DNA from: Rhododendron vialii
Taxonomy: Eukaryota > Streptophyta > Magnoliopsida > Ericales > Ericaceae
Assembly: GCF_030253575.1 (NCBI RefSeq)
Contig: NC_080567.1
Span: forward strand, 30,330,501 to 30,394,500
Length of the DNA: 64,000 nucleotides
Direction: 5' to 3'
Shown: positions 36,154 to 64,000 of the stretch, one piece after another
Layout: every line of letters begins with the position of its first letter
Numbering within the stretch: position 1 is the first letter of the stretch
Made by a program: the position numbers and the translations under genes
Notes under the pieces: generated by a model
What the model was told of the DNA's origin: nothing
Seen by the model: the letters and a program-made list of their open reading frames with translations, nothing else
Databases searched by the model: none

Positions 36154-36190
<37 letters not shown>

Positions 36191-42600: not shown

Positions 42601-44523
42601 AGAAAGCAAAAATACAAAGCCAACGCTATGGTGCAATTGCCATGCATGGGAACCTTTTGTGCCAATTATTTTTATAATAACTAGAATTATTAAAACCATG
42701 CAGAGAAAAAGATGGCTACTATTCTCGCAGATTCGTTCTATAGATCTATTGGTTCGCTTGTTTTATAGCGCCCTTAGAACATTATGGGTTGACTAAGTTG
42801 TCAAGTATCATAATATGCTATCCTGAGCTCATACTTTTGTTCTGAACAAATTTTAATTAATGAGCAAATTATGGAAGGGGTGAAGCCTGATTTAAGAAGA
42901 AAACAAAGAGGTACTTCTCCCTTTCATCACTCCTTTCTTGTACCGAATGAGATTAATGTCCAAGGGGTTCATACCTTTGGGGACAACCAGAAAAGGAAAG
43001 CGTTACCAGGCTAAGAGTTTCAACGGAGACATAAGGATTGGATTGCCCAAATGTTATTGCTTCCTACGGAGGATTTAATATAGGCAGATAGCTTCCTTGC
43101 TTGCCACACGGCTTTCCAACCATATATGACGAGCAGTCCTGCTAGCAACTGCCGGGCTTACCGGGGTCTAGGAACCTGGAACCTGCTTCCCAAAAAGAAG
43201 GGATGCTTTCGCTGACCATGTCTAATGTATTCATAACAGAAAAGAACAGAGATTTAAGTCCCCTTTTCTAAGATGAAGTCAACTTTCCCCTCGTATTAAC
43301 TATTTAAACAGGCTCATGTATTCAGCGGCTCTTCTCCTTCTTTGACTACTGTCAATCCTATATCTTCCTTCTCCTCCTAAACTCCCAAAGTCAGAATCAA
43401 GGAGTTCCTTTCCAATATCAGCTGTGTTTTAAAAAGTGAGGGTCGGCACAGGCTAAAGCATTAGGGGAGGTGAAGCACCTCTGTAGCACCTCAAAATCCT
43501 TGAGCCGAAGTGCCTCTGTAGCATATCAGACATTGCTTCAACGGTGAAGTCATTGGGATTCGTATCTCATCAACGAATTTCTGATTAAATGATCAGTACT
43601 TATTACTTATTAGTATGTAAACATATCGTTTACTTGCTTGTTACATCAAAACATATGGTTGGCTGCGTGTAAGATCTTGGCCCCGCTAAACCCAAATCAA
43701 AGCGCCGCCCTCGCATATCATCAACACAAAAAAATTGAGCAAGCTCCACCACTCTAAAGGAAATAAACTACCACTCTACCCACCCCGCTGTCATGCATAT
43801 ACCATAGGCCCATAGATAACACTCACCAACCTATTAATTCAGTACTCTCTAATCTCGCTTGTACACAACCCTCCATACGACAAATTATTCCGTACCCTGG
43901 GGCAGGCCCCTTCAATACCACACATCGGAGTGGGGCCTACACCCATTATCTCCACAGTCCAGTGTTCTAAAAGTCGATAGGCGCTCTTTGGGTGGAAGAG
44001 GGGCGCCCAACTCCCTAGGTGGTGGCTGACTAGTCGGCGCCTAGGCTAATTTTTATCTAGGCGTTGGACCCCCGCCTAGCGCCTAGGCACCAACCAGTCC
44101 GACCGATTTTTAGAACAGAGCTCCACACCAATTTGTGGTTGAAAAGGGCCGCACCGAATAATTTCTCCCTCTGGAAAGGCCCAAGATCTAAACCCCAAAA
44201 ACGAAGTATTTCCATAACAAATAAACCGTTATGTACTACAAAATTAAAGCAGTTTACAGAGCGCAATTGCAAAGAAATGAACATCAACACACGTAGATCT
44301 GAATACATATTACATAACGCGAATACAATCAGCCGTGTTGGGATCTGAGAGCTTAAATGTTAAATTAGAACCATAAACGCAGCTGAAATTAGTGATTTTT
44401 CTCAAAACCTATTACGTATTACGCAACGCATACCTTGTGATCGTGCTCCGAAGCGAACGCCAAGGAGACGATGAGGAGGGCGGTGAAGGCGAAGGAGGGG
44501 ATGGATCCGACGGTGAGACGCAT
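36654..44523 (-). CDS. Transmembrane nine (TM9SF/nonaspanin) protein, TMN8/11/12 type
   Basis: Twelve exons: 44,523-44,434; 41,904-41,712; 41,595-41,491; 40,460-40,443 (18 bp); 40,068-39,971; 39,894-39,742; 39,468-39,334; 39,120-38,954; 38,650-38,556; 38,414-38,041; 37,488-37,215; 36,721-36,654. All are in phase, giving 589 aa, the family length. A signal peptide ([20 protein letters not shown]) precedes the luminal domain with [21 protein letters not shown] and [19 protein letters not shown]. The nine-TM region begins at [42 protein letters not shown] and [12 protein letters not shown] lie in loops. The C-terminus RIYRNIKCD carries the KxD/E-type Golgi retention signal. These proteins act in Golgi/endosomal membrane trafficking. 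Intron 1 (2.5 kb) holds a hAT MITE. Exon 4 begins with GAT after ATG-G, giving MDDLPLWG. The gene is the intact parent of the broken copy at 45,728-46,567 and 62,391-62,480. Confidence 0.94.
43965..44119. mobile_element. hAT-like foldback MITE in TMN intron 1
   Basis: The ends CAGTGTTCTAAAA and (inverted) CTCTGTTCTAAAAATCGG flank an interior of TAGGCGCCTAGGC palindromes. CTCCACA occurs on both sides. The paralogous site at 62,105-62,125 in the TMN copy has no such element. The boundary is uncertain by a few bases. Confidence 0.68.
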
Positions 44524-45169
44524 CGGGATCGCCGGCATTTCGGATCTAACTGTGAGGAAGAGTCGGAGAGAGAGAGAGAGAGATAGAAGTCAGAGGCTTG
44601 TGTGTTGTTGATTACCTTCGCTTCTGGCTTTTGTTTCTTCCTTCGGGAGCGTTCAAAGAGAGACAGACTGTACGAGCTCGTGCTTGCGAATTTTAGGTTA
44701 AAATAGACCGCTGGGTGTGTATATTGTAACGGAGAATAATGTCTTGTGTGTATTGGAACAGTTTTTTTTTTCCCTTTCAAAAAAAAAAACTGTCTCTCTT
44801 TATTAAAAACACAAACGACCCAAATGGTGTTCGACTTAGCTTACGCGCACCTCAATTAATTTATCATTCATCAACATCAATGGAGGCCCCATTCGAAATC
44901 GGAGCCGCTGGACTTTGGGGTTTATTTCCTTGCTCACCAACGGGTTTCGATCTTGAGAGCTTGGGATCTTGGGGTTGTGGTCCATTTCTCATTAGGAAAA
45001 GAAAATGCGATCTTGACGGATCAGGGAAGAAAGGAGTGGTAATTTGTTCACACAACCAAAAATTCAAAAAGTACGTAAAGGTTGCCCCCATGTGAGAGTT
45101 TTATTTTGATGATCTGACTCGTTCATTTTGTAAATGTGTATGCTATGATTGCACTGTACTGTGTTAAAA
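44524..45169. other. TMN promoter region, with SINE fragment and duplication junction
   Basis: 44,524-44,600 is a GA-rich leader. A short Au-SINE fragment (AGCTTACGCGCACCTCAATT) lies at 44,828-44,862. At 45,085-45,105, GAGTTTTATTTTGATGAT matches 62,908-62,925 upstream of the TMN copy. The duplicated block therefore includes the promoter and ends near 45,130-45,170. The plus-strand frame at 44,739-45,095 shows no known domain. Confidence 0.55.
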
Positions 45170-45727
45170 ATGACGACCTTTTGAAGCATCCCAAGCCCTT
45201 CCTTGACCAATACATCGCATAACGACCTTTCTCACACATGACATCCATGTAATCGCGTAAGAGAGAGCGAGAGATTTTCAAACCAAATGCAACTTGAAGG
45301 TAAAAGCATTTTCTTATTGCACATGTTCACTACCACAAATTACATTTCTCAATATCATTCCCTCAAGCTTCTTCTGTCACATACATATAACAAAACTAAA
45401 CAGAAGGTGAACACAGGAGAGAAGCCGTTACAAGGGACATGAATTGCCTAGGGAAGAGGATGACGATAAGTATCGAGTACCAACTTGGTCAAGTTTTAAA
45501 CAATCTCTGTAATCTAAATTATGTAATAAAAATAATAATAACGAAAAGGCCTTCCACTTATATCCCAAGACAAAAGGGGGTAAAAATCTCGGGGCTTCTC
45601 CGTGTCTAAAGATTTGCATGCCCTCCTCAAACCTCCATGCGTAGACATCAGTGGTTTCCCCGCAAGTGTTCAGAGGCTTTCTCTCGCTCATTCTCAACAA
45701 TCACGTTGTTGAGGTTAGGCAAGTACC

Positions 45728-46567
45728 CTAATCACACTTGATGTTTTGGTAGATCCTTCTTACGAACAAATTGGAACCCAAATAACCAATAGCTCCTAAA
45801 ACATAAAGAAAGGTTGACCAGAAGTTATAAACATAAGAAAGATTTGTACATAATATAAAAGACAGCCCAAGTACAGATGTGAACCAATCAAAATTTTGAG
45901 CCTAAATATCAAGATAAGAATTGATACTCATTTTCTTTTTTCGGAAAGATTTCAAATTGACAGCAAATCAAACATCACAACCCATGCTAGGATTATCAGT
46001 GTTCCATAGAAACTTGTAGTGAAATGGAAAAGCTTCGGGACTGTAGAAAATAATTCCATACAAGAAGTAGAAGTAGCAAAAATTACAAGGTGGCAAACTT
46101 TGGCATGGAAGCTGTTAAACTCACCGCAGAGAATTCCTAACCCAAGGCAAAACATGAGAGTGTATCCAAAATAGAAGCTGGTCTGGAAGAAGCCCGACAT
46201 CTTAGTCTTCACAGCGTAGTAATATATTGAATATAAGTACACATATACAGCCGTTGAGGCAGCTGAGAAAAATGAAGTCCACTGCCAGGGATAGTTCTCA
46301 GCATTAAGCAAGAAATACGCCCCAACAATTGGAAGACAAGTGGTTTGGAACGTGTGTAGCAGAAAAGCACATACTTCAAAATTTTATGTCAATCTGACTA
46401 TCAATGAGTTCATTCCCACCAAGAACTTCACCGAGACCACCCCATTTGTGAGCCGCATTGCTGGATTGATGACAAAATGGAAGGCTGTAATAATTGTACG
46501 TCTCTTGTGGGTTATTATAAGGACCAACCTTATTTACCCATAGGGTAACAGGGTAGTCTGATTGATA
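45728..46567 (-). pseudogene. Broken tandem copy of the TMN gene, 3' part
   Basis: It retains copies of exon 2 (46,567-46,375, same 193-bp length), the 3' part of exon 11 (about 46,330-46,125) and exon 12 (45,795-45,728, ending RIYQNIKCD and TAG). Exons 3-10 and the start of exon 11 are missing. Parental positions about 37,415 and 41,665 are joined at 46,331. Copy exon 2 ends AAA-TTT-TGA where the parent has AAA-TTC-CGA, a nonsense change. The flanks (45,170-45,727 and 46,570-47,508) are paralogous to 36,040-36,653 and 41,910-43,515. Exon 1 of this copy lies 16 kb away at 62,391-62,480. Confidence 0.92.
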
Positions 46568-47471
46568 CTACAGGAAGGAAAAATATGTTGTCAGACAAGT
46601 GCATCTTGTGACAAGACATGTGAATAACAAACAGAAAGGCCCAAACAGTAACCGTATTCAAAGAGAAACACCCTTTTGTCAAGATATACAAAACTAATCA
46701 CCTTGAACTTATTACCTAGCTGAAACAAAGGCCCAAACAAGTGGAATTTCTACCAACAATCCAACTCGTAAGTGAAATAAGACCCAGCAGCCTCGCCATC
46801 AAGACAACGTGGTCGGATATGTTGCATTTTTCAAATTAACGTTAGTTGTACTTCGCAGGCAGCAAAGAATTCACGCAGTCCCTCAAGCTCTCAGGAAGCT
46901 ATCACCCTCACTGGCATAGACGTGATTGTTTTAGGGCCGTGTTTCCTTTCAAATACCAGATCTCTCTTTTTCTATTTCAAACTCTATCCAACTCTTTCTC
47001 CCTATGTGAAAATTCTAGAACCAAATGGCGAGGACAAGCAACAAATACATATAAGCCAAGCCGGTGGATAGGTTTTCAAGTCCCTCTTACTTCAATTCTT
47101 TCATTTACTTATGAGTTTAGTTAAATCTACAAAATTGGTGTTTGGCTTGATAGTTGGTTGCAGTTCAATTCAACAAAACTGAGTCATACATTGTTAACCT
47201 ATTTTTTATTCTCTAGGTTTATGTGAACTTCGCATTCTACAGCATATATTCTACAGCATATAGAACTACGAGAGACCTGAACGTTAACGTTATGGTGCAA
47301 TTGCCATGTATGGGAACCTCATTGTGCTAATTATACTTCATATTTTCAAAATAACTAGAATTACTAAAACCATGCCAAGCAAAAGGTGGTTAGTATTCTT
47401 GCAGATGTTTTGCTGTTCTACATATCTATTGGTTCACTAGTTCTATAGCCCTTCGAATATTATGGGCAGAC

Positions 47472-50400
47472 TTAGGCGCTAGTTGAGGTGAAGTGCCTCT
47501 GTAGCAAACTAGCCATGTAACCTTGAAGAAGAGAAAGTTGAACTTCACTTGTCACTTGAGAGACCCCGTCATGCACCTGATGGTTACCAAAACGAAAACA
47601 ATGCATAAAAATATCAGAAAACAGATAAAACAAGTAACAAAGACTGACAACTGACAAGTCTAAATTGTTGACCACCACATCATCTCAAAGCTTCCACCAA
47701 CAATAGCACTTGTTACACGGACTTGGGTAGAACTCAACCAAACCCTAGTTCTGCTGATTTGATTTCTATGATTTCTTCTTCTAAAATCGATCATGTTAGA
47801 GCTTGTCCCACATTGATTAATTATAACCTCCAAAACTAGTATATGAGCTTGGGCAGCCTCTTCATTCATGGTGAATTAGTTTTGAGTTGGATGCTTTAAT
47901 AGATCAAATCAGTGAACTTAACAAAACTAAAAATTATGCGAAAAATGGAATAAAATTCTGCAATTTTCCAAAAAACGACCAACAATTAAAATAGTACGAT
48001 TAAATCTTGAACTATTTCTCCCAACAGGGGAAAAGAAAGGTCTTGAACTATATCAAATGCTCACACACCCAACTACATAGTACTACATATTAAAAATCAA
48101 AGAGAAGACATGGACGTAAATGTACATTGAATACATGGCATACTCGTTTGTACAAATACATCTACGCTCATAGTTACATCTTAAGGAGTTTCAATCAAGT
48201 AAAACATAAAGCTAATGCAGACCATCATCAATTAATCACAATTTTTAGTTGGTAAATGGTACGTAGGAAGAGATAAACTGATCATAGCTTTGATAAATAA
48301 AGCGTGGACGAAAGACATCTACGGCTAGCAAGATGGAATTACTCATAATAATATAACCTGAGTTAGAAAAGCAGTGCAAAAGTCAACCCCTACACTCAAC
48401 TAACACTCATGAATCAACACCAACAAACTTGAGGACCTCCAAAATCCAGTAAACAAAGGCATGAATGTCATTACAGATGCAATGAGGACCAACAAGATAA
48501 AGACGAGTTAAAGTTACAAGAAAGCACCTTCATCTCATCCTTTCGCACATGACCATTGTTGATTTCACCTTCATCTGCATAATTCAATAATGGTGTCATG
48601 CTAGATGAAGATATCCTCCTTTCTCGCCTCCGATGAAACAAAGCCCATCCAAAAAGTGCAGATACCAAAATAATGTAAAAGATTGCCAATGAAAACTCTA
48701 CGCATTTGACCTACAAGCATCAAATAAAAATCTTAGGCCATTTCATGAAATACAGTCGTGAATCATGACACAAGTCACACATGGAGCTCCTAATAGATAA
48801 CTACTTTTATAATACCATGAAGTCATCAAATCATGAATTACTAAAACAGCCAGTATGTTTCCGAAAATCTAAACCTTAAGAGACCCGATACTGATGGAGC
48901 ATGGATCCTTTTCGTGGGGGGAAGGGGGTTCTAAGTCTGAGCACACAGGAGACGCATGGCAATCCCCACAAGAGCATCCCAATGAAGTGTCACCACAAGA
49001 ATAAACAGATACGTTCATGAGCTCCATTCTGGATGATTCAGGAAACCTTGACCGAAAGGTAATGGCATAAGGTGACCCAGGTAAACCAAGATCTGCTTGC
49101 TGACCAATAAATGCAAACCATTCTGGCAAACGAAAATTAAAGACATAAAGTACTCAAAGAAAAGCACACACTAGCATCCAATCATGCAAGCAATTAAGGT
49201 ATTGATAACCACAAGGATACAAAGGCATTCAGACGCCAATAAAGCCACGATGCAACTTAATTCCGAACTGTGGAAAATTGAAAAAATTATCCAATTTCCT
49301 GTTCTAAGATTTATAACAGCAGTTCATCTCAATGTCTCCATGAGTTTAATACTATCCTCTTGAGTGGATATATGAGGGGCTTAAAGGGGGGGTGAGGGGA
49401 AGAAGAGAGAACCAGCTGCAAACTGAAAGCATAAGTTACCTCTAAAAGTTTGAGCGCCTGCACCAACAAATTCTAACGCCCTTGTATTCATGGTTCTAAA
49501 CTTTACATCTTTGCAGGAGTTGTATAACCCTTCTCCAAAACTATCAGTTACAAAAAAGTCAATGCCATCAACAGTCAGGTTGCCGCTCCCCTGAGAAACA
49601 GAACATTAAGTCACGAGTAGGTAAACTGTAAGCATGACACAAAAATATCGATATACTAGCTACATAAGGGGAAGGATGAAAACTTACTTGAAAAGCACAT
49701 TGGTAATTACATTTTCTGCACTACAAACAAAACACATCCTCAAATCGTAAGACTAGTATACCTTACTTTGGAACTGGAAGTCACATTGATGAATAAACTC
49801 TGATTTTGGGAACATGACATCTCACAGAAAAGATTTAGAAAGTTCCTCAAGCATGCTAGGCAGCCTACAAGGAAAGGAACTGCCTACAGAAATTGAACGG
49901 ATTAAGAAATATGTAAATCCTATAAAAGGGAGAAATACTAGTTAGTACTTGTAACATTCTCAGCTGAAGATGGTTCACATGGCAAACACTGCTCTAAAAT
50001 GTCGAACACATCCCATATCTAGCTCAACTGCCAAGTGTCTAACTCACAACTCTCATATAAATGTAGAGGAGTCCATGTATCTCCGTAAAAACAGGACAGT
50101 GCCACCATTCTCTAAGTAAACAACTAAACCCTAATAGGCTAATACAAATAAAATACAGGGGTGAATGTCTGCAGTTGACTTTAACTCCAAGAAAACACTT
50201 AAATAAAATAAAATAGAATGTTCACTTCTTACTTGTTGAACTTGTGCACGCAATGTCTCAAATTGAGCCTCTGTACAACAAACATTTCCGCTTATTGTTG
50301 GACACAAGCTTTGGACTCTCTCGGAAAACAACTTATCAGGCTGCAAAGGATACAAAACCATGATCAAGTACCATCACACATTGAAGGATGCAAAACTTTT

Positions 50401-51557
50401 GATTTACAAGTAGAATGAAAAGCAAAACACAACAAGCCATCAAATTTTAATTACGTGGGAAAAGAGAGAGTGAGAAAAAGATCAAGCTGCTGATATAAAT
50501 GGCAGAAAATTGGAACTGAGATAAATCCTACATACCCTCACAGATGGGGAACCATAAGGACAGTTCAAAACTTTGCCATCACTTCGTTCTCCACAAATAT
50601 CATACATTGCACAGTATTCTTCAGAATGCCTATCCCTGATCAGAAGATCAAGCACAATAATTCCTCAAAAACACCCCCCCAAAAAAATGATGAAATACGT
50701 AAAATTGGCTTAGCAACATTCAGCTATCAATTATCCTATAAGACCAGAGATCATCATTACATTCAATTAGCCAGCTATTGCAGCAAAGTAACCAGCTAAC
50801 AGCCAAGGGAACCCAACACATAAACAGTTCCATCATTTTCTGTTTATATCAACGAAAGATGCTAACCCCTGCCCATTAAGGATCAAAACTTGTGTACTAG
50901 AGGATGTGAAAAGTGTATTGAGATGTGTAAAATGTTGGGCATACGGTGTCGCAGCCCAATCAGCTATTGTTAGTAACACTGTATATCAGAAGCTCTCAAG
51001 AAATTTGTTTTCTTGGGGAACATGGTATTCACAAGCTTCACCATAGTCTTACTCATAAAGATAATCGGAAGTTGGAACCTTAATATGTTATACCCACTAG
51101 AATTGGAACCTGCTTGACGCATGAGCATGATGAAGTACGTTCACTCACAAGTTTGAATGGTTAAGGTAGAAATGAATGACAACATTAACTGCTATTAGAT
51201 GGGAAGCTAGTAGGATTGGGGAGTAGAGAAAAATAAAGACAAGGAGAGAAGGAAGTAAGAAGTTATTTAACTATAGCTTTCAATCAAATGTCCCATTAGG
51301 ATGTAAGAATCTAAAACAAAAGTGGTAAGGGGGAATGTAAGGTACAAAAATTATGAAATATATATGTACACATTAGTAACAGTATATAATACAAATACAT
51401 GTAGCAACTAAATTTTCAATTAAAGGCATCCAATCCACGCAAATCATGCGAGGGAAAGCGAGGATAGGACTGAGCCTAAGGAAAACAACAAACAAGCAAT
51501 GATGGAGATCAAAGTAATTTTATCTTACCCACTGGAAGTAGAAAAGAAATTGAGCAT
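47472..51557 (-). pseudogene. 5' fragment of an NPC1-type sterol transporter gene
   Basis: Exons: 51,557-51,529 (tentative); 50,635-50,536; 50,340-50,233; 49,883-49,767; 49,590-49,440; 49,122-48,875; 48,710-48,528; 47,576 to a stop at 47,472. Splice sites are good and phases agree, giving 346 aa. The sequence is the cysteine-rich sterol-binding N-terminal domain (HSEEYCAMYDICGERSDGKV, CPTISGNVCCTEAQF, FLVGC-ACLRNFLNLFCE, VYSCGDTSLGCSCGDC). TM1 follows (FSLAIFYIILVSALFGWALF), then QGYMA. Here NPC1 homology stops and TMN-intron sequence supplies about ten codons and a stop. Full-length NPC1 is about 1,270 aa; the sterol-sensing domain and all later exons are absent. No signal peptide is visible upstream of MLNFFSTSSG. 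It is likely a pseudogene, though the frame is undamaged and a truncated product is possible. Confidence 0.88.
47794..47901 (-). mobile_element. Miniature solo-LTR-like element, second copy
   Basis: The plus-strand end TGTTAGAGCTTGTCCCACAT and the interior (reverse) AAAGCATCCAACTC and AAGCTCATATACTAG match the 28,580 element in inverse orientation. A perfect 5-bp duplication GATCA flanks it (47,789-47,793 and 47,902-47,906). It sits in the last intron of the NPC1 fragment. Confidence 0.8.
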
Positions 51558-51771
51558 CACTATTCTCTGATGGTAATAAAGAAGCAAATGTGGAGATTTG
51601 GTCCTACATAAAGCCGACACGTGCTCCAATATATACCAATTTTCCAATTTCCATTGGGTTCGATTTTTTTTTTCTTTTTGGTCATATACTTGTTCCGATG
51701 GGGGCTAAAGTCGCTTATGACTGCGGAATTAGGCCGAATATTTATTACTCCGCTCTGGGGCGTAATATTAA

Positions 51772-51965
51772 GGCTCCGTTCTGGAAATAAAAATAAGTAC
51801 TTATTTTTTAAGAAGATAATTTCAAGTTCAAAAATTATGTGCTTATGCAAATTATTTTTTTGTCAATATGGATCTTGTTTGATAGATCTTTAATACGATG
51901 CAAAAAAAATTGAAAAATTATTTTTCATTTACATCATTTTTGAGTTTGAAAATTTGGACCTAAGT
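51772..51965 (-). mobile_element. Partial copy of the 3,012 Tourist-like family
   Basis: It starts GGCTCCGTTCTGG after TTA-A and shares AATAAGTACTTATTTT. Its interior (ATGGATCTTGTTTGATAGAT, then ATTTACATCATTTTTGAG) is the reverse complement of 3,120-3,215. It is truncated at its far end. It lies about 210 bp upstream of the NPC1 fragment's first tentative exon. Confidence 0.7.
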
Positions 51966-52440
51966 TGCATGGTTAACTTCAGTATTATACTAAATTTTTT
52001 TGAAAAGTTTTTCTTTTCTTGGGTGTGTATAAACCATGATAATAATTTATTCCTTTAATTCTGCATATTTAAATTTTCTTATTTCAGCTCTACCATAAAT
52101 TTTGTGCACTATTTTTTTTCTTCGAAATGAAAGTATTCATATGGTAATGTTCTTTTAATAATTCTTTTTATTATAGAACTGAAATATCATATCCTATACA
52201 AAATACCTCCCCTTGAGCTAATGCAATAGTTATGATTCTTATGAAGTTTGACTTTCTATTTCCTTGCGATATGCTTGGGTACTTGTATGACTTATTTTTT
52301 CATTTTTTTTCCCTCTCTAAATTTATGATTTGAAAACGATAAGCATCTTGATATAATAAAATAAAATAAAATAAGTTGGACCGAAAGAAAAAGAGGCGAT
52401 TCCCATGACTAGGCGAGGCGTATGAAAACACAGCCTCATG

Positions 52441-54675
52441 TCATATGTGAATGTGGGTGTCGTCAAACTTCATACACGAATGCAGCTGCTCACTTACAAG
52501 GCAGAGCTCACCGGAAAATGGATAATGCTTATTATTGTTATCCCCCGCAACAAACTTAAACGCCTTGTTATTACTGCTAACATGCACCAAACTATAGCCG
52601 GTCACCATCCTCACCCCTCTCTCCTTCACCAGCCACCTCATCCTTGCCGCGTCACTCCACCGCCCACCAGCCGCATACATGCTCAATGCAAGCAAATATC
52701 CCGCCGAGCTACACGGCTCCAACTCAACAACTCTAGAAACAGCATCTGAACCAAGCTCCCTATTCCCATGACTCCTACATCCACTCAACAACGCCCCCCA
52801 AGCACTTGCACCTGGGTTTGGACCACTAACAGCCATTTTCTTTATCAACTCCATCGCAATGTCAAGCTTCCCACCCCTAGCCAACAAGTCCACAACGCAT
52901 GAGTAATGTTCTAACCTCAGCTGACCCACGTCATCTTTAACCAACTCATCAAAAAATAAAAGTCCCTCCTCGATCAATCCCCCGTGGCTGCATGCGGATA
53001 ATACCGAGAGAGTTGTTACTGGGTTTGGCTTCAATCCGTGGGTTTTCAATTCGTGAAACAAAGCTAGGGCAGAATGCGGAAGGCCATTCATACCATATGC
53101 TGCAATCATGGCACCCCATGATATAATGTTTGACTGGGGTAGCTGTTCGAACACCCTTTCTGAGGATTCTATTGCCCCGCATTTAGAGTACATGTCCAGA
53201 ATTGCAGTTCCAACAGCTACATCTGGTGCCAAGCCTCTACGGATTGCAACGGCGTGAGCCGATTTTGATCTTTTCAGTTCAGCAGAAACGGAGCAAGCCT
53301 CAAGAAGATTTAGCACAGTAATGGCATTGGGCTTGTTTTGTGTTTCGTTCATCTCTTGGAATATGGCAATGGCTTCATCGGGCATGCCACAATGGGTGAA
53401 TCCTGCAATCATCGTGCTCCAAGTGACTGTATCTCTTCTCTTCGCCTGATGGAATACGTTCCATGCAAATGTAATGAGATTACCTTTTGCATAGGCATCA
53501 ATCAAAGAACTTAGGACTAAATCATTCACTTCATAACCCCGCCGGATTATTACAGAATGAATGCACTTGCAGTGAATTGGATCACAAAAATGTTTGCATG
53601 TTTGAAGAAGATTCACCAGAGTCACCTCATCAGCCTCAATTCCTTCCTTAGACATCGAATCAAACAGCGATAGAGCTTCTGAATACTTCTCATTACTGAT
53701 AAATCCGGCTAAGAGAGAGTTCCACGAAACATTATTCCTCATAGGCATCTCCCTGAATACTTTTGATGCAGATTCTATATCATCGCACTTTGCATACATA
53801 TCCACTAAAGAGCCTGCAACAAATACATCGTAACCCAAACCTCTACAGATCACAAACCCATGGACTAACCTTGCAATGCTAACTTTCCCCATGTGAATGC
53901 AGGCCTTGATTACATTTACCATTATTTGCCCATCCATTACAATTTCATTATTGCATACCATCTTACGGAACAACATGAAAGCAACCACAGCTTCCCCAGA
54001 TTGCACATAGCCCCCAATCATAACGCTCCAAGAAATCAAATCTCTTCCACACATTTCATCAAACAGCTTGTGCGCAATCTCTATTTCAATGTCAGAATAA
54101 AAACTCAAAAGAGAATTCTGAACTGAAACAATAGCCCAAAAACCTCTTATGATTACAAAACCATGCATTTTCAGTCCTTCATGAGTAGCCCTGAGACTCC
54201 GACACGCATGAATTACGAGCACCAAGGTAGCAGTGTTGGACTCAAATCCATCATTCCTGCCTTGCATAAACAACCACAAACCTTCCTCAAGAGCACCGCG
54301 ATGAAGTTGACCATGAATCATTATATTCCATGATACTGATTCTCTGCTCCTCATGCTATCAAAAACGTGCCGTGCAGAATGGAAGGCTCCAGATTTCACG
54401 TAAAAATCCATGATAGAATTCCCCATAGAAGGGAATGATTCTAACCCCTGCTTAATTAAACAAGCATGGACAGACTGTCCATGTTTGAAGGGGAGGAATG
54501 AGCATGCTTTAACAATAGGATGGAACAGGGAAGGGTCTGTCAATTGAACTCCAGCTTTCTTCATTTCCCGGTAATGGGCGAACACTTCTTGCCATTTCCC
54601 ATCAGATGATGATTCTTTGATCCTCGAAAACCAATTGGGAAGCTTCCAGCCTGAGGAAATAATTGGGAATCGCAT
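52441..54675 (-). CDS. PLS-class pentatricopeptide repeat protein (At2g17210-like)
   Basis: Intronless, 744 aa. Tandem PPR motifs of 31-36 residues run from about residue 35 to 640. Examples are SVSWNIMIHGQLHRGALEEG, DLISWSVMIGGYVQSGEAVV, NNVSWNSLLAGFISNEKYSE and NIISWGAMIAAYGMNGLPHS. An E-type C-terminal domain follows (GASAWGALLSGCRSHGNRELG, LEPCSSAGYLLALSMYAAGG, KERGVRMVTGYSLV), without a DYW deaminase. Order and wording match the Arabidopsis At2g17210 protein as I recall it. PPR-E proteins bind organellar RNA, usually at editing sites, with help from MORF partners. No strong targeting peptide is evident at MRFPIISSGWKLPNWFSRIK. Start: first ATG before the repeat array; no later ATG improves it. 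It lies inside the block that splits the TMN copy. Confidence 0.94.
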   Translation of the reverse strand: MRFPIISSGWKLPNWFSRIKESSSDGKWQEVFAHYREMKKAGVQLTDPSLFHPIVKACSFLPFKHGQSVHACLIKQGLESFPSMGNSIMDFYVKSGAFHSARHVFDSMRSRESVSWNIMIHGQLHRGALEEGLWLFMQGRNDGFESNTATLVLVIHACRSLRATHEGLKMHGFVIIRGFWAIVSVQNSLLSFYSDIEIEIAHKLFDEMCGRDLISWSVMIGGYVQSGEAVVAFMLFRKMVCNNEIVMDGQIMVNVIKACIHMGKVSIARLVHGFVICRGLGYDVFVAGSLVDMYAKCDDIESASKVFREMPMRNNVSWNSLLAGFISNEKYSEALSLFDSMSKEGIEADEVTLVNLLQTCKHFCDPIHCKCIHSVIIRRGYEVNDLVLSSLIDAYAKGNLITFAWNVFHQAKRRDTVTWSTMIAGFTHCGMPDEAIAIFQEMNETQNKPNAITVLNLLEACSVSAELKRSKSAHAVAIRRGLAPDVAVGTAILDMYSKCGAIESSERVFEQLPQSNIISWGAMIAAYGMNGLPHSALALFHELKTHGLKPNPVTTLSVLSACSHGGLIEEGLLFFDELVKDDVGQLRLEHYSCVVDLLARGGKLDIAMELIKKMAVSGPNPGASAWGALLSGCRSHGNRELGSDAVSRVVELEPCSSAGYLLALSMYAAGGRWSDAARMRWLVKERGVRMVTGYSLVHVSSNNKAFKFVAGDNNNKHYPFSGELCLVSEQLHSCMKFDDTHIHI

Positions 54676-55406
54676 TGCCGAGGAGCTAGTGCAATGTCTC
54701 GGTTCATGGTATTGTTACTTCTCTGTTATCGCATAGATTGAGTAGGTTTGTCCCAAGATCAATGCTGCAACAATGATAATATACTAAGAGTTTCCACTAA
54801 ACAAAACGACGGGACAGAGCATTCATTTACGCCATTCTCATTCCTTGAGAAGTTGAATATTTATGTCAATAAACTAAAACGGAGGCATCCCAATAAGGTC
54901 CAAAGGTGGATTGGAGGGGTTCTGTTAAAATCTTCTTGAAATAGAACAAACACGCACACAGAGACCTACCTAGATGGGCTTAAAATTAAGCTGTATAGCT
55001 CTTTTTGCCGATCAAAAAAGAAAAAATTGTATAGCTCAGAGAATCTCACTAAAACCAACATAGAAGCCAATCGTCTGATTAATGATTCTTCAATTCCCTT
55101 AACCAACCAGTAGACCATGGGAAAAAGCATCAAGAAGAAACTGGCTCGTGTTTTCAAACAAAGCAAATAATAGTAGACAAATATATATACATCTCCTAAA
55201 AGGACCAAGAAATGGCCATAGCCAAAACGCAGACTTCCCCTGATCCTGCACATATAGCATAAAAGAACATGAAAATTTTCTGAGAGCAATATTGTATCAA
55301 AATTTTTTTTTCTTTTCATTTTTATTTCCTGCGCAAAGAAATGGAATCACATATTCCATGAGAGAGAGAGAGAGAGAGGTAAACTTTACAGTTGATCATG
55401 AAACTA
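54676..55406. other. Intergenic gap between PPR and GAUT3-like gene
   Basis: Both genes are on the minus strand, so this holds the GAUT 3' UTR and the PPR promoter. There is a short GA run near 55,362-55,378. No further gene is seen. Confidence 0.5.
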
Positions 55407-58172
55407 TTATCCACTAATGTTGCAAAGTTGAAGATAAGAATTATCAAACATAACATATCTAGACCAGTATGACTTGTACTTAGTGATAGCTAGATCCAAC
55501 CACGGCTTGTAGTTTCCATTGTAATGCACCACAGCTGCATTCTCTATTGCTGTTTGATTAAGGGCAGGATCGTAGCCAAGACCCAACGCATGCCAGCTCC
55601 GCTCTAGTGGATAAGTCAGGTTATAGAAAGTTATCAGTCCAGGAGGCAATGTCCCAAGTTTCCAAAGAGTTCTATCCTCATTCTGCAAAACAACATGTCA
55701 TGAGTTTGAAACTAGCACTGAAGTCATAGATAGAAGTAATGCAAATGGACAGGTTATGCTGGGCAAGTGATGAGGACAATGAGATTAAAATGCTTTATTT
55801 CAGAAAATGTATGTAACACTACAAGTCTAGAACAAGGAAAAGTATCTTCCAAAAGGGACTTCTAGGAATACAGCAGGTTATACAGCATTTTACATAACAT
55901 GCCCATTTGGCATTATGTCATTCTTTATTGGGTTTAAGAAGAAAATTTGCACTCCACCCAATGAGTCGATGCCACATATGCATCTTGCGAAATTGTTTTG
56001 TTGTGTTACTACCTTTCCGTGATGAAAAGTGCAATAGACCAAGTCTAACTTGTTCAATTCTAGAGAAGGGGAAACATTAGAATCTATTTCTTTCTAGGTG
56101 AGAGGAAAGGAGTTCTAGGATTTAATTGGAAGCAGGAAAGTGTCATTGATATTCCACCCACACAATCCTTGACAAAAGGAAAAACCAATGATCCAGGATG
56201 TCGCGACAAAAACAGCAGATGCCCTATGAAACAAAAGCAATCGCGTAACTCCTACACCCTAATCATGACAAAAATAGTATCCATAGCTAACTAAACCCAA
56301 GGATCCATTGCAGTCATCTTAGGGGCGAAAACACAGTATCTACAAGTCGACAAAAGATGATATCCAAACTATTTGAACTGCTTGTGTCCACACACACACA
56401 CAGACAAGGGCACAAACATGCAATACAATTTCCACTCGTCCAACCGACACCAAGAACACATCAAACTGTAACAAATGAAATGAAATGCAGTTACTTGGGA
56501 AAGTGTGGATGTGTGCGGGGCACATGCCTATGTATCAAAACAAAATTTTGCATGATAACAATTGTTATTTGCCCAAGACAAAATGAGGTTGGACACTGAT
56601 GTTTCCTTACCAGGTCTTGCCAATGATGATATATTCCTGTAATGTCTTGCTTCCTCCACTCCTTCAAGTCAAAAACATTCATTCCAAACGCCCAGCCACA
56701 AGAATTTGGATGAAAATTCTCAGAGATCTTTGGATTGGTAAAGTTTAGATACTTGTCAAATCTGTGAAAACTCTCCTTACAGGTCTCAACTGCACCGTTC
56801 ACCATCCCTCTCAGATTTACAGACCAAAGAGGTGTCAGATCCTTCCGAACTACAATATCATCATCCAAAAACAGGATTTTATCCAGCTTTGGGTAAACTT
56901 CAGGAAGGTAAAATCTAAGGTGATTCAGCATGGACAAATATTTTGGATTCCTATATTTGAGATTGTCAGATCCAACAGACAGGGAAGATGCTTGATTTGC
57001 CTTAAAGTAATATTCTTTCATTCGAGCAGATTCCAGTTGCCGTAGCACAGGACAGTAAGAGGAATTTAGCCATGTGAAATCATCAACATTCTCAACTTGG
57101 ATGGCTGCTCCCACAGGAGGGTTGACTAGAAACCACATTTTCATGGCCGCAAAATTCAGTTTATCCGTTACAATATGGAATACATGCTTTTCGGGTTCCT
57201 TTGCATGTACCAAAGTAGAATTGACAACCACAGATGTAGCAAGAACATTATCAGAAAAAATAGCATAATGGAAGAGAGAAGTATCTTCTAGTTTATCTTT
57301 GTTGGGAAAGCCACTGTTTTGAAAACCCTGAAGGTAATAGTCTGTTGTAAGCTGTAGAGGAAGACAATGCAAGGGTTTAGGGACTATTTTTGCAGCTAGC
57401 TGGATTAAGAATGCACTCTTCTTCCTCAGCAAATTTACATTCGCTTCAGTAGATTGAAGCATGGCCCTTAACTTCCTTGCTACTATGAGACAGTCATATA
57501 GTTGGTCCTTGGCTATTGACAGGGTGTGGCCCATTGCTTTTGCACGATCAAGAGCACTAGATGAGGGGAGAAAGAGAAAACCCGCGTTAGAAACAAGAGC
57601 CAACATATACACCTGGTAAAGCATGTTAGAATATAGTAGTAGTAGTAGTCCCACATTGCTTAGTTTACTTATTCCTAACACATAACAATCTTATTTATAT
57701 AGACGACTCACATATTAAATAAGTAAACTAAGCAATGTGGGACTACTACTAATACTATATTCTAACAAAGCACAACAAAACAAAGTGGCAATACCTCGGC
57801 TGAAGCTCAGCATCAGAACGTGCATCTCCAATGGCATGTTGACTTTCCCTGGAACTTTGCATAAGAGAGTCATATAGACCAGTTTCATTATTAGCTTTCG
57901 CAATACTTGCATAAGCTTTCGCCATGATGATCTGATCGCGCATAAGTTTCAAGGTTGAATCAGAGTTAGGGTTCTGATATTCTATTCTCCATATACTGTA
58001 CCTACCCTTGACAGTGGTGTCAAGCTCTCTAGCTCGTTTAATAGCAGCTGCTTGCAACTGGTTATCAATCTCTTTATCTTGTCGAATTAGCTCCGCAGTA
58101 CGAAGATCCCTCCTCTGCTGCCGTAACAACTGAAGTGCGAGAAACAGTCATCGTGTGAAACCAACTCGGTGA

Positions 58173-58229
<57 letters not shown>

Positions 58230-61200
58230 CGCTATAGAAGCATATGACATTTTACCCGACGCTTAAGCTTCACTGGGTTCATGGTAGATGTTTGTGGCTG
58301 TGGCATTTCACGTCCCAAAAGATGACTGGCAGTGGAATGCTCAACATTATCTCCAAATCTCACATCAGTTTGAAATGACTCTTCTAGTGCCTGAGGGTGC
58401 AAAATAAGAGAAGGATACCTCCAGTTAGTAACCTCAGAATTATGTTTTCAGTGAGTTGATCATAAACACAATACTGCAGTCTGCACACATATTTCAGTTC
58501 CTCATATGATATGACTTATACAGCTCATATAATGTGAGGTTGATGCACCTAAATGTTCAGGGACTGAAAACAGTTGTTTTTCTGACTAATTTGAAACTCC
58601 AAAGGGATGTTACTACCTGGGAACTATTCTGATGGTCAGTGTTTTCATCTGTCGGACTTCTCCAGATCCAGGAAGCTGATAGATCCCTAGATTTCACAGT
58701 CCTAATTCGAACAGATCCAGAAGTGTCGGTATAAGTCACAATAATGTCAATATCCTGCACAAATATAGGAGAATAAGAATCCTTCAGAAATGACAGCCAA
58801 AAATGAAAATCTGTTGGGTACCTTTTCATCCGGAGGGCTGCTACCTGAAGCAGATTTCACATGACCTTGTTCCTGTCTAGCCTTCAGTTGGTCCACATGC
58901 AAATAAGAGTATAACATGGGCATGTGTAATTTGAGCAACCAATAAAACTAAATACACAACCAAACTTTTGTTCGTCTTTTTTTAAATATATGGCTATCGT
59001 GATTTCAAAATGTACTCTCAATTCAGGTATTGCCACCAGAAGGGACCAAGTAATAATACCAAAGTAGGCATATGATAGGCGGTCAGACATCACTGCCACC
59101 ACTCAAATCAATGAGGCATTTTTCTGGTACGCAAGATCATAATCCATGAGCATGAAGTATTACCTCGTCTTTGCAGTAGTTTCCACCGGAATTGTACAAT
59201 ATTCTCTTCGAAGTTTTCCAACGCCAACAATAAAACAAGAACGAACATCTATCACCTAGGAACTAAGAGAGGAATTCTATAACTCCCAGCAATTCCAAAG
59301 ACCATAAGAATGATGATCCAAGCAACACCAGTTTGGGCTTACTAAAGCTAAGCTCATCCTTTGGAAAGTTTGGCTACTTCATCATTGTACCTTAATCCGG
59401 AAAAAGGGAGCCACTTTCAAGAAGCTCTACTTCAATCCAAAGAAGCCTAAAAGGAACACCTTATGAATAATCAAAATCACCCATTCTATCCATTTGACAA
59501 ACAAAAAAGGCAAACGAACAGGATGACCACATTCGTCGTCCACAAACAATCTCATGAGGAATGGAGTCGATTACCAAAGAGATATCATAACCCATCAAGT
59601 TGAGAACATTATCTTTTTTTCATATTTCCCATTACTTACTGTTTTCCCCCCCAACAGAAGTAATTTAGGACCCAAGCATTTGGCACCCATAAATTGCAAC
59701 ATCCTTGTTCAGAACTTGAGGCTGCAAACCAACAGAGATTGAATTGACAGGGCACGCGACAAGAGAATTAATGAAAATCGCCAGGCTAAACTGCTAAAGC
59801 CAGATGCACACCCAAACGAAGAAGATAAAGGAACTAAGAATAGTCCACTTATGTATGTAAAATAAAAGAAGCTGTAAGAGTCTAGCACTAACTACTACAA
59901 GATGCAAGTTACTCCAATAGTGGGTATAACATAATGGCAGAGCCGCAGAGGTGAGTATGAAACCTTTTTGCCAACACATTGAGGACAGTCATACAATGAC
60001 CAGTATGATTTCTGATCTCTTTTCCTGTTGGAAAGCAACAAAGCAAAACAAGGAAGTGAAAGTAATCAAATATACACTCATTGACAAGAACATCGCCCTA
60101 ATTACGTCAACAATTCACAAAAAGTAGTAGATCTTTCTATTGCCAATAGATCCTTACGAAACATCTTACATGGTTCGAGTATCTGATAAATCTGCTCCAG
60201 CATGGGAAATTTGAGGCGTGGCCTGCATGGGTGCAACATATCAAAGACAAAGACGGAAAAGGTAAAGACACAAATTGTACAAGATGATGCTTGAACCCTA
60301 AAAGTGCAACTACAAGTATGGAACACGAAGGCTCTCTTTGTTTGGGCTGAAAATATTTCCCGAATTTCCGGTGTTTGGTTGCACATAACTTGGGGAAAAT
60401 GTTCTCCATGTAAAGGTAAGTCATTGACAATTATTTTCATCATAAGGCCCCTGGCAAATGGCTAGAGAACATTTTTACCAAATCAGAACTATTTAAAGCA
60501 TACCCCATGTTCCTCCACTGTTCGATAAGAGAGAAAAGTAGTTTAGAGAGAGAAGGTAAGGAACACGGAAAGGGACCTAAATAGGTGTCTTCAGAATGTT
60601 CACTGTAAATTGGGATTTTTTCGCTCCTGTAAATGCCATTGTTATTCTAATACGGAACCAAACATCGGAAATGATAGGGTAAAATATTTTCACGTATACA
60701 AGGATTAGAAATGAAACGGTTTGTGAGATGGTAGGTGTAGCACCCATAAAAGAGAAGTTGAGGGAAAATAGGCTAAGGTGGTTTGGACATGTCTACCGTA
60801 GACCAGGAGATACAGTAGTTAAGAGAACGGATAGGATAGCTTTGGGTAGCAATGCTACGGGCAGGGGTAGACCTAAATTGACATTAGATGCTGTGGTGCA
60901 CAACGATATGAGTATAGTAGGTTTATGTGAACAAGTGGCCATTGACAGAGCTTAACGGAGGAAAATGATTCATGTAGCCGACCCCAAGTGATTGGGACAT
61001 ATGGCTCGGTTTGGTTAGGTTTATACAAGGAAATTTTTTTTATAGTAAAATATTTTACGTTTGTTTCAAGGGAGCCGAAATGAGTAACTGAAAGCTAACT
61101 TAAAGAGAACTATTTGAAGAATTAGGCTCATGATGAACTAGAAACCTGTCCAGATGTTCCAAACATTCTGGCCCCAATCAGAATGACCAAAAGCATTGAC

Positions 61201-61460
61201 CTTCCTATATTACACAAGTTAAAGTGGCAATCAAAGATAGTAGTGACAGATGTATCGCTAACAGCGCAAGAGAAGCAAAAGAAAAGGTGGAATCTTCAAT
61301 GACATGGGGATCGATGTATCCAAATAGCACGCACACAGGATAGTGAATTTAGTGGGAAAGAAAAAAGAACACTGTAAATGAGATGAGGGATGTTAAGGCT
61401 TACCAGAAAGACGCAGAGAATTAGCAACTTAAAGAATCTTCTCCAACGAGTTGTCATCAT
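55407..61460 (-). CDS. GAUT3-like galacturonosyltransferase (GT8)
   Basis: Confident exons: 58,754-58,617; 58,390-58,256; 58,129-57,795; 57,556-56,611; 55,682-55,407. Probable exon: 58,881-58,822. Tentative 5' exons: 60,222-60,170 and 61,460-61,404 (MMTTRWRRFFKLLILCVFL, a type II anchor). The phases of the two tentative exons and 58,881 do not agree, so one exon is missing or misplaced. The product is a Golgi pectin (homogalacturonan) glycosyltransferase. The core shows HYAIFSDNVLATSVVVNSTL, HVFHIVTDKLNF, the DDD metal site in KILFLDDDIVV, NGAVETCKESFHRFDKYLNF, NSCGWAFGMNVFDLKEWRKQ, LWKLGTLPPGLITFYNLTYP and HALGLGYDP. HYNGNYKPW ends the domain. The upstream KGRYSIWRIEYQNPNSDSTL and RDQIIMAKAYASIAKANNET segments point to GAUT3 rather than GAUT4. 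The first exon lies close to a rearrangement junction (about 61,500), so promoter integrity is doubtful. Confidence 0.9.
57624..57767. mobile_element. Palindromic LTR-like element in a GAUT3 intron
   Basis: 144 bp. TGTTAGAATATAGTAGTAG at the left and its complement at the right form arms of about 48 bp, both containing TCCCACATTGCTTAGTTTAC or its complement. A perfect 5-bp duplication AAGCA flanks the element (57,619-57,623 and 57,768-57,772). It has TG...CA ends and shares the GTCCCACATTG word with the elements at 28,580 and 47,794. Confidence 0.82.
58176..58229. repeat. Compound (TA)n(GA)n microsatellite
   Basis: (TA) repeats at 58,176-58,210 run directly into (GA) repeats to about 58,229, inside a GAUT3-like intron. 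Confidence 0.95.
60697..61015 (+). mobile_element. LINE 3' end fragment (non-LTR retrotransposon)
   Basis: Plus-strand frame reads TRIRNETVCEMVGVAPIKEK, LRENRLRWFGHVYRRP, GRGRPKLTLDAVVHNDM, then (after a stop) RKMIHVADP. This is the familiar C-terminus of plant L1/RTE-like reverse transcriptase proteins. It is followed by GGGACATATGGCTCGGTTTG, the usual 3' UTR wording. It is severely 5'-truncated, with an in-frame stop near 60,955. It lies antisense inside the GAUT3-like 5' intron. Confidence 0.85.
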
Positions 61461-61686
61461 CACGGGTTGTTATAAAGAGACACAAATGCAGATGCAAAGA
61501 TGGTACTTCTTGAATCTGAAAAAGTCATTGGCATCTTTTTTAATCTTCGTATCCATCAAACAAAATTCAAACAATGATTATCAGTACTCCATATAAGACT
61601 TTGGCCCCATTTGAACCCAAATTCTGGTTTTTTTCTTGCATATATTATCAATACAAACAGCTCGTGCAAGCCACACTACTCTTAAC

Positions 61687-61961
61687 CAGGGTTTCGAATC
61701 CATACCATACCGGACAGTAAGTACGGATTCTGATCAAATCGGGTACCCTATAACTCTAATTCCGTTCCGGCTCAAATACCGGTCGGTACTAGACTATTGT
61801 TAATTTCAATTTTAATACATGTTTTATCCTAAATTTTCTAACATGGGAAAATGACATTAATAAATAGTGATAAATCCAAAATGGTAACCGGTATTTCACC
61901 GGTACATATGGGTACCCAGTAGGAAATCGGTCCCCTATCCAGTGCATTATTCAAAACCTTG
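61687..61961. mobile_element. hAT MITE with 8-bp TSD
   Basis: 275 bp with ends CAGGGTTTCGAAT and (inverted) CAAGGTTTTGAAT. A perfect 8-bp duplication CTCTTAAC flanks it (61,679-61,686 and 61,962-61,969). The interior is rich in TACCGG/CCGGTA words. The paralogous position in the parent (about 43,758) is empty. Confidence 0.88.
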
Positions 61962-62281
61962 CTCTTAACGCGATAAACTACCACATTACCCACCCCACTA
62001 TCATGCTTACATAATCGGGCCATAAACTAACACTCACAAGCCCACTAAAGCATTAAAAGAAGCCCCTGTTACTTCACTGGTGTACTCTAATTTAGCTTGT
62101 ATGCAACCGTAACACAGAAGGGCCAAGATCTAAACCCCAAGCCCTTAACACTAGCAAATTTAAAGCAGTTTTACAGCGCAATCACAACAATTGAATATCA
62201 ACATATACAGTCAGATCTGAATGTAGATTATATAATGCGAATACAAACTGAAATGTAGAGATATGAGAACCTAAACGTTGG

Positions 62282-62282
<1 letters not shown>

Positions 62283-62319
<37 letters not shown>
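62283..62319. repeat. Poly-C tract of 37 bases
   Basis: An uninterrupted run of 37 C follows AACGTTGGA and precedes TACAAAAAAAATAAAAAATG. It has no counterpart at the paralogous place in the parent TMN intron (about 44,362). It may be a real homopolymer or a sequencing/assembly artefact. Confidence 0.95.
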
Positions 62320-62390
62320 TACAAAAAAAATAAAAAATGCAGCTGAAATCAATTAGCTTTTTTAATAAACACGTATTGCGTTACGTATAC

Positions 62391-62480
62391 CTTGTGATCG
62401 TACTCGGAAGCAAACGCCGGCGAGACGATGAGAAATGCGATGACGGCGATGAAGGGGAGGGATCCGACGGTGCGCCGCAT
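62391..62480 (-). pseudogene. Exon 1 of the broken TMN copy
   Basis: Encodes MRRTVGSLPFIAVIAFLIVS plus ASEYDHK, the signal peptide exon. It has the same 90-bp length and donor position as parent exon 1 (44,523-44,434). The frame and donor (ACAAG|GTATAC) are intact, but exon 2 of this copy is 15.8 kb downstream beyond three foreign genes. The upstream leader (GA-rich, GTCAGAGG) also matches the parent. Confidence 0.9.
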
Positions 62481-62661
62481 CGGATCTAATTGTGGAGAAG
62501 AGAAGGAGAGAGAGAGAAGTCAGAGGTGTGTTAATTACCTCTGCTTTTGCCTTCGGTTTAGAGAGACTGAGAGAGAGAGAGTTCACTGGAGGATTTTGTG
62601 ATATTAATCACAAATTTGCCCCACGAGTCAAACATATGAACACTTAGGCCCATTTCTTTCA

Positions 62662-62795
62662 GTTTTTATGTTTATTTTTTTAAAACCGGATGTCTGAGTC
62701 AATTTACGAACACTTTGACTAATTTCAAAATGCTAAAGATAACGACAGGGCAAACCATCTAATGGTCTAAACGTTCGAGCGTGATCAATGATACA
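62662..62795 (-). mobile_element. Au-like SINE, diverged
   Basis: Minus-strand reading holds TTAGATGGTTTGCCCTGTCG, TTATCTTTAGCATTTTG, and TCGTAAATTGACTCAGACAT before an A-rich tail. It is a more diverged member than the 34,636 copy. Confidence 0.55.
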
Positions 62796-64000
62796 AGTCA
62801 CAAGATGCTAAATTCTATTTGATGAATTGGGAAAGAAATTAGTACTATTTCGTTCAATCACACCGAAAATATATGTAAAATGTTACTCACCTTAAGTGGG
62901 ACCCGTACGGGAGTTTTATTTTGATGATATGATTTGCTTCTTTTGTAAAACTTGTTTGTTTAACAACGAGAGTAATAATTAGCGCAATTGAATTTCGGTA
63001 AAATACTTGATGAATCATTCAAGTCTTGGTCCTAAATTTGGGACTAAAATTTAGAGTCAAGATCGGTATTATTTGATCAAATACTTATCCAATGCCAAAT
63101 TAAGTGGATTTTTTTTTTTGTACGACAACCACATGGCATGAATGACTTGGATCATCAAAGTGAGATCTAACTTAAACACCACACAAAGTAGGTGTCAATA
63201 TATCACTCAAAAGAAATGTTGGAGAGGTATGAAACGATATATCTTAGGTAAATCACTTAAGCACAAAACGTTACTTATTTATCACAAGCTGTACATGAAT
63301 ATTACCAAAAGTTGTTATTGTTATTTAAGTCAACAAGGTTAATTTAAGAAAAAAAACGAATAACTTTTTGTGACTTTCACGTTAATCAAAGATTAAAATT
63401 TTTCTAAACCTTTCTCCCTAAATTGCCGTCCCAATCAAAGTATATATATGCAATATAAAAGAATTGGCTTGGATTCCATGAACCAGATTAACTTGGACTA
63501 TAAGCATCAAAATCCTTCTTTGTACATATCTAGTTGGGCCTGGTCAGGCCTTTCCATTAACCCCACGGACCAGAATACAAATAGGCCCATAGAAATACAG
63601 GCCTCTTTCCTTCTGATTTCCCTGTTCCCTTTCCCAGCTTCGGTGAAATAATATATACTAAACTCATCTATCAATTAGGTGATTTGGATTGAAAATACAG
63701 AATATAGGGTTGGTTAAACGAACTCGGATTTGGTTCGACAAGGCTCAAGTTTCCGCAGCTTTTTTATCGGGACAAAACTACTCCTAACACTCAACATAGA
63801 TAACGAGGTGGAGTATTTGTTTCGGTCTCGACGCAAGTTCGGTAGGGTCTTTATATGTAATGAATGATGTGGTGTGAGAGACAGGCGGGACACTACTTTA
63901 TCGTGGAGGTGACAGGATACCATATCTGCACTTTTATATTTTATTTTTTTATTGCAATAAGAAACACTATAAACTCCTTTCCTCAATCTTCACTTATCCT
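62796..64000. other. Right-end region without gene
   Basis: At 62,905-62,950 there is residual similarity to 45,085-45,120 (upstream of the TMN parent). Beyond this I see only AT-rich non-coding DNA. The short frames have no recognisable domain. Confidence 0.5.

Follow-up and report, generated by a model that had tools for sequence, protein, structure and literature searches.

A 14-kb insertion with an NPC1 fragment, a PPR gene and a GAUT3-like gene in intron 1 of a tandemly duplicated TMN gene of Rhododendron vialii

In the genome of Rhododendron vialii (532.6 Mb in 13 contigs), a tandem duplicate of a TMN/EMP70 gene is interrupted in its first intron by 14.0 kb of sequence that has no counterpart in the parent gene. 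We analysed the locus in a stretch of 64,000 nucleotides on contig C11 (C11:30,330,501-30,394,500), hereafter the window, by whose numbering all positions given without a contig are to be read. The interruption is an insertion, not an inversion or translocation breakpoint, and it holds the 5' end of an NPC1 gene, a PPR gene and a GAUT3-like gene; its NPC1 part is a duplicate of sequence found elsewhere on the same contig. The explanation that we favour, and regard as probable, is that NPC1-PPR-GAUT3 was copied to this place by break repair, after which the source lost PPR and GAUT3. We met no direct report of this locus in the literature, where no search was aimed at the locus as such.

An insertion within a tandem TMN duplicate

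Parent and copy were compared by self-BLASTN with sensitive realignment, and the reversed sequence served as control. The parent gene unit, delimited by local alignment and recognized by Pfam EMP70, occupies 9.1 kb on the minus strand (36,031-45,142; exon 1 at 44,434-44,538), and the ends of the aligned unit place the whole copy, insert included, at 45,147-62,958 on the same strand. The 3' part of the copy, with the last exons, exon 2 and the start of intron 1, lies to the left of the insert (45,147-47,505, minus strand), and the 5' part, with the rest of intron 1, exon 1 and the upstream region, lies to its right (61,522-62,958, minus strand). Eight same-strand, collinear matches join parent and copy, all with E-values of 5.8e-6 or better, against only six short matches in the reversed control (E 0.001 to 0.066). 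Left of the insert, parental 36,036-36,104 corresponds to 45,154-45,223 of the copy, 36,182-36,788 to 45,260-45,859, 36,997-37,424 to 45,902-46,334, 41,665-42,003 to 46,330-46,668, and 42,622-42,797 to 47,286-47,475. Right of it, 43,752-43,844 corresponds to 61,962-62,055, 44,235-44,636 to 62,150-62,559, and 45,003-45,134 to 62,810-62,949; here the similarity is weaker (64-76%), yet stronger than in the reversed control. A head-to-tail tandem duplication made the second TMN gene. A preliminary description of this DNA had the copy split into halves collinear with the parent on either side of parental position ∼43,520, and this proves accurate nearly to the base (breaks at 47,505 and 61,522), the collinearity also holding on formal alignment.

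At the left junction (47,505/47,506) intron 1 of the TMN copy abuts an NPC1 exon. The intron tracks the parent as far as parental position 43,523, which corresponds to 47,505, although a short local repeat at this target in the C11 parent makes ∼43,488 an equivalent placing. The joint has one shared base, and the edge cuts NPC1 within the exon, 6 nt before the inferred splice donor. The right junction (61,521/61,522) was set by eye, similarity being secure by 61,597; there the intron resumes at parental AAGTCATTGG, position 43,547 corresponding to ∼61,522. The resumption within 61,500-61,686 scores 36, compared with a maximum of 25.5 among 300 random pieces of the window from outside TMN. Between the two edges ∼23 bp of the parental intron (43,524-43,546, by eye) are missing from the target. 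Neither a target-site duplication nor terminal inverted repeats were seen by eye at the two insert edges, of which no dedicated repeat search was made. Further into the resumed intron, a 275-bp miniature inverted-repeat transposable element (MITE), whose ends are inverted and whose target duplication of 8 bp, CTCTTAAC, is exact, explains a gap in the similarity (61,687-61,961); we take it to be hAT-like from the rule of target-duplication length. On its minus strand this intron also carries 37 consecutive G (62,283-62,319), a likely weak spot for sequencing or assembly.

The preliminary description had left the choice between a gene block inserted into an intron and an inversion or translocation breakpoint. 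The first is upheld by the shared orientation of the halves, the 14.0-kb insert, the ∼23 bp missing from the target and the NPC1 gene cut within an exon; the second is not supported, the halves having the same orientation and no reciprocal junction being needed. A breakpoint, or a native PPR-GAUT3 pair around which pieces of TMN were arranged, could appeal to the loss of part of the second TMN copy on contig C9 (see below), which marks the locus as prone to rearrangement. It is nevertheless highly improbable, as the halves are collinear on one strand with ∼23 bp missing, and an inversion would not leave both halves in order flanking one insert.

The edges also bear on whether a gene-capturing transposon, such as a Pack-MULE or a Helitron, carried the block. 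Pack-MULEs, like other elements with terminal inverted repeats, show such repeats and a 9-11-bp target duplication at their edges, whereas Helitrons begin with 5' TC, end with 3' CTRR and a hairpin, and insert between A and T; for either, 14 kb with two whole genes is large. At this locus the inspection by eye gave no terminal inverted repeat or target-site duplication, and the left edge is plain NPC1 exon sequence. We therefore consider capture quite improbable, even though repeats are abundant here and such elements carry plant gene pieces, as excerpts of one study describe (PMC3445842).

State of the second TMN copy

As a TMN gene the second copy is a pseudogene, because its exon 2 has a TGA stop just upstream of the inferred donor and an internal deletion has removed 4,240 bp (parental 37,425-41,664) together with the internal exons. 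The deletion joint (46,330-46,345) links sequence shortly beyond exon 2 to the interior of the penultimate exon; lying off the splice sites at both ends, it led us to reject a retro-processed origin of the compact copy. The EMP70 domain is recognized in the penultimate exons of both genes (92.6 bits in the parent, 63.7 bits in the copy), while exon 2 passes narrowly in the parent (27.1 bits against a cut-off of 27) and falls under the cut-off in the copy (23.8 bits). Exon 1 of the copy (62,391-62,480) keeps an open frame and a GT donor; the open reading frame (ORF) over it had no Pfam match. Head-to-tail arrangement, exon loss and a stop codon are what tandem duplication followed by pseudogenization generally produces. 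What sets this copy apart is its interruption by a foreign 14-kb block.

What the insert carries

The insert had been described as a block of three genes. Pfam does find PPR, GAUT and NPC1_N domains in it, but NPC1 is present just as a 5' fragment, so that the block consists of two genes plus a fragment. The fragment (47,506-52,265, minus strand) comprises the upstream region and ∼7 5' exons (counted by eye), and NPC1_N was found in three ORFs of the insert, in two of them above the cut-off. Up to 50,179 it has no insertion or deletion (indel) relative to its source, and its exon frames (47,506-50,664) appear unbroken; it could conceivably encode a truncated protein with the NPC1 N-terminal domain. 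Next to it lies the PPR gene (52,441-54,675, minus strand), an open single exon of 744 codons with an E motif, identified by Pfam PPR. It has no close intact relative among the matches listed when the best 59 of 930 genome candidates were scored, the best by E-value being 33% identical.

The third member is a GAUT3-like gene of the GT8 family (55,407-61,460, minus strand; Pfam GAUT_1 and Glyco_transf_8), whose candidate first exon (61,404-61,460) and ATG would lie ∼60 nt inside the insert edge. The best other match of a GAUT fragment in the genome is 78% identical and lies on C7 (33 of 33 candidates scored), in a paralogue that we take to be GAUT1-like. Within the gene, a ∼320-bp repeat (60,701-61,023) recurs in at least 37 places at 84-94% identity; its plus-strand frame presumably represents the end of the reverse transcriptase of an RTE-type long interspersed nuclear element.

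Probable source of the NPC1 part

The NPC1 part matches C11:39,126,854-39,133,633, on the same contig ∼8.75 Mb distant and in the same orientation, at 98.2% over 4,075 aligned bases and 95.9% over 663 (local alignment, gaps excluded; BLAST gives 97% and 94%). The longer alignment contains seven indels between window and source, and the source carries an extra stretch of 2 kb relative to the window. Beyond the matched part the source continues with NPC1 exons in order, three of its ORFs matching solved NPC1-type proteins (residues 337-380, 367-409 and 450-487; best E 0.008, 0.0007 and 0.06). The expectation that NPC1, PPR and GAUT3 would be adjacent elsewhere was thus borne out in part, by R. 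vialii itself: at C11:39.13 Mb the piece forms the beginning of a longer NPC1 gene, but PPR and GAUT were not found there.

The divergence from the source bears in turn on assembly error. The run of 37 G in the same intron speaks for such an error, but there are no Ns in the window (and none in its 20-kb right flank), and an NPC1 piece that differs by 2-4% and seven indels from the source is not one molecule placed twice; an artefact of this kind is very improbable indeed.

Similarity between window and source stops at 52,265, which is 176 bases short of the PPR stop codon; beyond that position the source region matched only 31 bases, up to the break. In the source, the 867 bases that follow the end of similarity are a dispersed repeat with at least 97 matches including itself, among the best 40 of 329 candidates, and the starts of these matches cluster: 14 of the 96 others begin within the first 20 bases, including nine at base 5 or 6. 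The source's own repeat thereby accounts for where the similarity ends, and no edge is needed in the window at this point.

One block or two events

The case for a single block comes from gene order. A TANGO2 gene (PF05742, 3.7e-18) lies ∼9 kb beyond the matched source stretch, with a kinase-like piece between. A 129-aa piece of TANGO2 has one further locus in the whole genome, at C6 0.736 Mb, and a 94-aa piece of NPC1 has one besides source and window, at C6 0.838 Mb; both of these lie close to the beginning of C6, and the two genes would appear to have been linked before these regions separated. For comparison with Arabidopsis we assume that AT4G38260 is the TANGO2 gene of that species. In excerpts of the papers concerned, AT4G38260 is termed Golgi-transport related (PMC6022867) or uncharacterised (PMC6471938), AT4G38270 is GAUT3 (PMC6566377), and AT4G38350 is an NPC1 homologue (PMC3756299). 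By these gene numbers GAUT3 is expected between TANGO2 and NPC1. The GAUT3-like gene of R. vialii was not found in that interval at C11:39.13 Mb; it adjoins the NPC1 fragment in the insert. From this gene order we infer that PPR and GAUT3 arrived together with the NPC1 piece in one event, and the Arabidopsis gene numbers point to C11:39.13 Mb as their ancestral site.

Alternatively, there were two events, PPR-GAUT3 arriving by one route and the NPC1 fragment being set beside it as a separate 4.76-kb duplication. In its favour, the NPC1 part has its own clear source match ending at 52,265, a PPR fragment exists alone elsewhere (on C10), and the source yielded no remnant of PPR or GAUT. Yet the similarity ends at the source's own repeat, which makes an edge at 52,265 unnecessary, and it would be a coincidence for an NPC1 fragment to land beside GAUT3, its expected old neighbour. 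We judge two events unlikely, if worth serious attention, and retain the transfer of a single block as the probable explanation.

Order of events

A second duplicate of part of the locus helps to order these changes. The region C9:12,719,310-12,767,044 holds counterparts of a ferredoxin gene, of the parent TMN gene and of the 3' half of its duplicate, the parent counterpart (12.738-12.747 Mb) being 91-96% identical, gaps excluded, to that on C11. Because the C9 half-copy retains the internal exons that are deleted on C11, the internal deletion on C11 is younger than the C9/C11 duplication. We also considered C9 as an empty site; the intron-1 part is unmatched there, so that C9 neither supports nor refutes the insertion. 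The C2-domain gene that flanks the TMN locus in the window (12,016-13,104; presumably a phospholipase D) has 14 matches in the genome and none on C9 (20 of 20 candidates scored). Because the flanks are unmatched in this way, we treat C9 as an apparent dispersed segmental duplication rather than as one of a whole-chromosome pair. Retrotransposon-like reading frames surround the C9 duplicate among the frames listed and read by eye.

Kimura two-parameter (K2P) divergences from the local alignments are 0.12-0.29 for the tandem TMN duplication, 0.046-0.092 for the C9/C11 duplication and 0.018 for the NPC1 duplication, rising to 0.042 in the upstream part of NPC1, where a repeat lies and 24 of 27 changes are transitions. 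The NPC1 duplication, having diverged least, is therefore the most recent of these, and it entered a TMN copy that was already old.

A probable origin by break repair

In the sequence of events that we propose, the tandem duplication that made the second TMN copy came first. Later, a contiguous stretch consisting of the NPC1 5' end, PPR and GAUT3 would have been copied from the TANGO2-NPC1 region, which lies ∼8.75 Mb away on this chromosome, and would have closed a double-strand break in the first intron of that copy as filler DNA, by synthesis-dependent strand annealing or end joining. We infer that the direction of copying was from the source to the window. Repair with filler DNA fits the junctions because there is no target-site duplication, ∼23 bp of the target are missing and one base is shared at the left joint. 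PPR and GAUT3 would afterwards have been lost at the source, next to the dispersed repeat that adjoins the upstream region of NPC1 there today. On this account NPC1 at the new site would have been a fragment from the outset, which would be why the genes appear to have moved. The TMN copy, a pseudogene, has also lost its middle exons.

The insertion fits a kind of gene movement already known from plants and does not call for a new mechanism. The model of gene movement through double-strand-break repair reportedly originates with Wicker et al. in 2010. As set out in excerpts of two papers, movement by break repair with filler DNA consists of a gain at the acceptor site and a subsequent loss from the donor site (PMC3445842, PMC3503983). 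The present case resembles what these excerpts describe in that gene-bearing DNA occupies a non-collinear place without a target-site duplication, in that a proposed loss at the source would complete the apparent movement, and in that a gene is truncated at the edge, as in imperfect insertions. It differs in that three consecutive genes appear to have moved at once, into the intron of a tandem duplicate, and in that the source keeps just one of the three: among the candidates scored, a near-identical source copy was found for the NPC1 third and not for PPR or GAUT3. Movement of the Ghd7 ortholog in Brachypodium, as far as the excerpt goes, likewise involved a genic fragment inserted by illegitimate recombination, but in that case the break was evident from a transposon that had a 10-bp target duplication, and no such mark was seen here (PMC3503983).

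Several observations weigh against this explanation. The right junction was placed by eye, and an automatic scan did not localize the edge but chose the end of its range, 61,440. Pfam named neither of two source ORFs read here as NPC1, and four PPR/GAUT pieces had no tblastn match within C11:39.12-39.16 Mb. The origin as one block depends on gene order together with the Arabidopsis gene numbers and the provisional name GAUT3, which comes from the preliminary description and was given to a gene with GT8 and GAUT_1 domains; and in the TANGO2-NPC1 region of C6 no GAUT match is listed below 1 Mb. A partial PPR copy (C10:38,913,181-38,914,325; 86-89% identical, gapped) stands alone, its neighbours within the 30 kb read being unrelated, which implies that PPR pieces can move by themselves; as it is a solitary 1.1-kb remnant, we rejected it as a homeologous source of PPR. 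Exon 2, intron 1 and exon 1 of the second TMN copy are all unmatched in the C9 region (12.70-12.81 Mb). Finally, the genome searches covered part of their candidates: the search with the DNA of the whole block scored the best 39 of 6,177, with the window itself not among the matches listed, so that absence is not demonstrable from it, and in the PPR search (best 59 of 930) the known C10 piece is not among the matches listed.

Most moved plant genes reveal merely a break in synteny. Here a single genome lets one read where the block landed, what the target was like beforehand (from the tandem parent), the block itself, part of its source and the relative order in which the events took place, and the locus is a datable candidate case of movement by duplication and subsequent loss.

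Possible promoter capture

The GAUT3-like gene is the only one found in the genome, and it lies on the same strand as the TMN copy, ∼0.9 kb behind the promoter side and intact exon 1 of that copy. This arrangement would allow promoter capture, in which the GAUT3-like gene, having lost its own promoter, would be driven by regulatory sequence of the TMN copy; from the sequence features at hand we regard this as rather doubtful. A capture transcript could perhaps splice the donor GT of TMN exon 1 (62,390) to an acceptor near the junction, a CAG ending at 61,516, and exon 1 may then act as a leader exon for the GAUT3-like gene. An in-frame fusion of TMN exon 1 to GAUT was rejected, a stop occurring 28 codons on from this CAG, which makes a simple fusion protein unlikely. 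If promoter capture is true, the pseudogene would survive as the promoter of a pectin-synthesis gene. The locus lends itself to testing concretely whether a cell-wall gene took over a new promoter on being relocated.

Other features of the window

Far from the TMN locus, at 3,312-3,594, the window contains a palindromic element, foldback or MITE-like, which is 87% identical over 284 bp to its own reverse complement.

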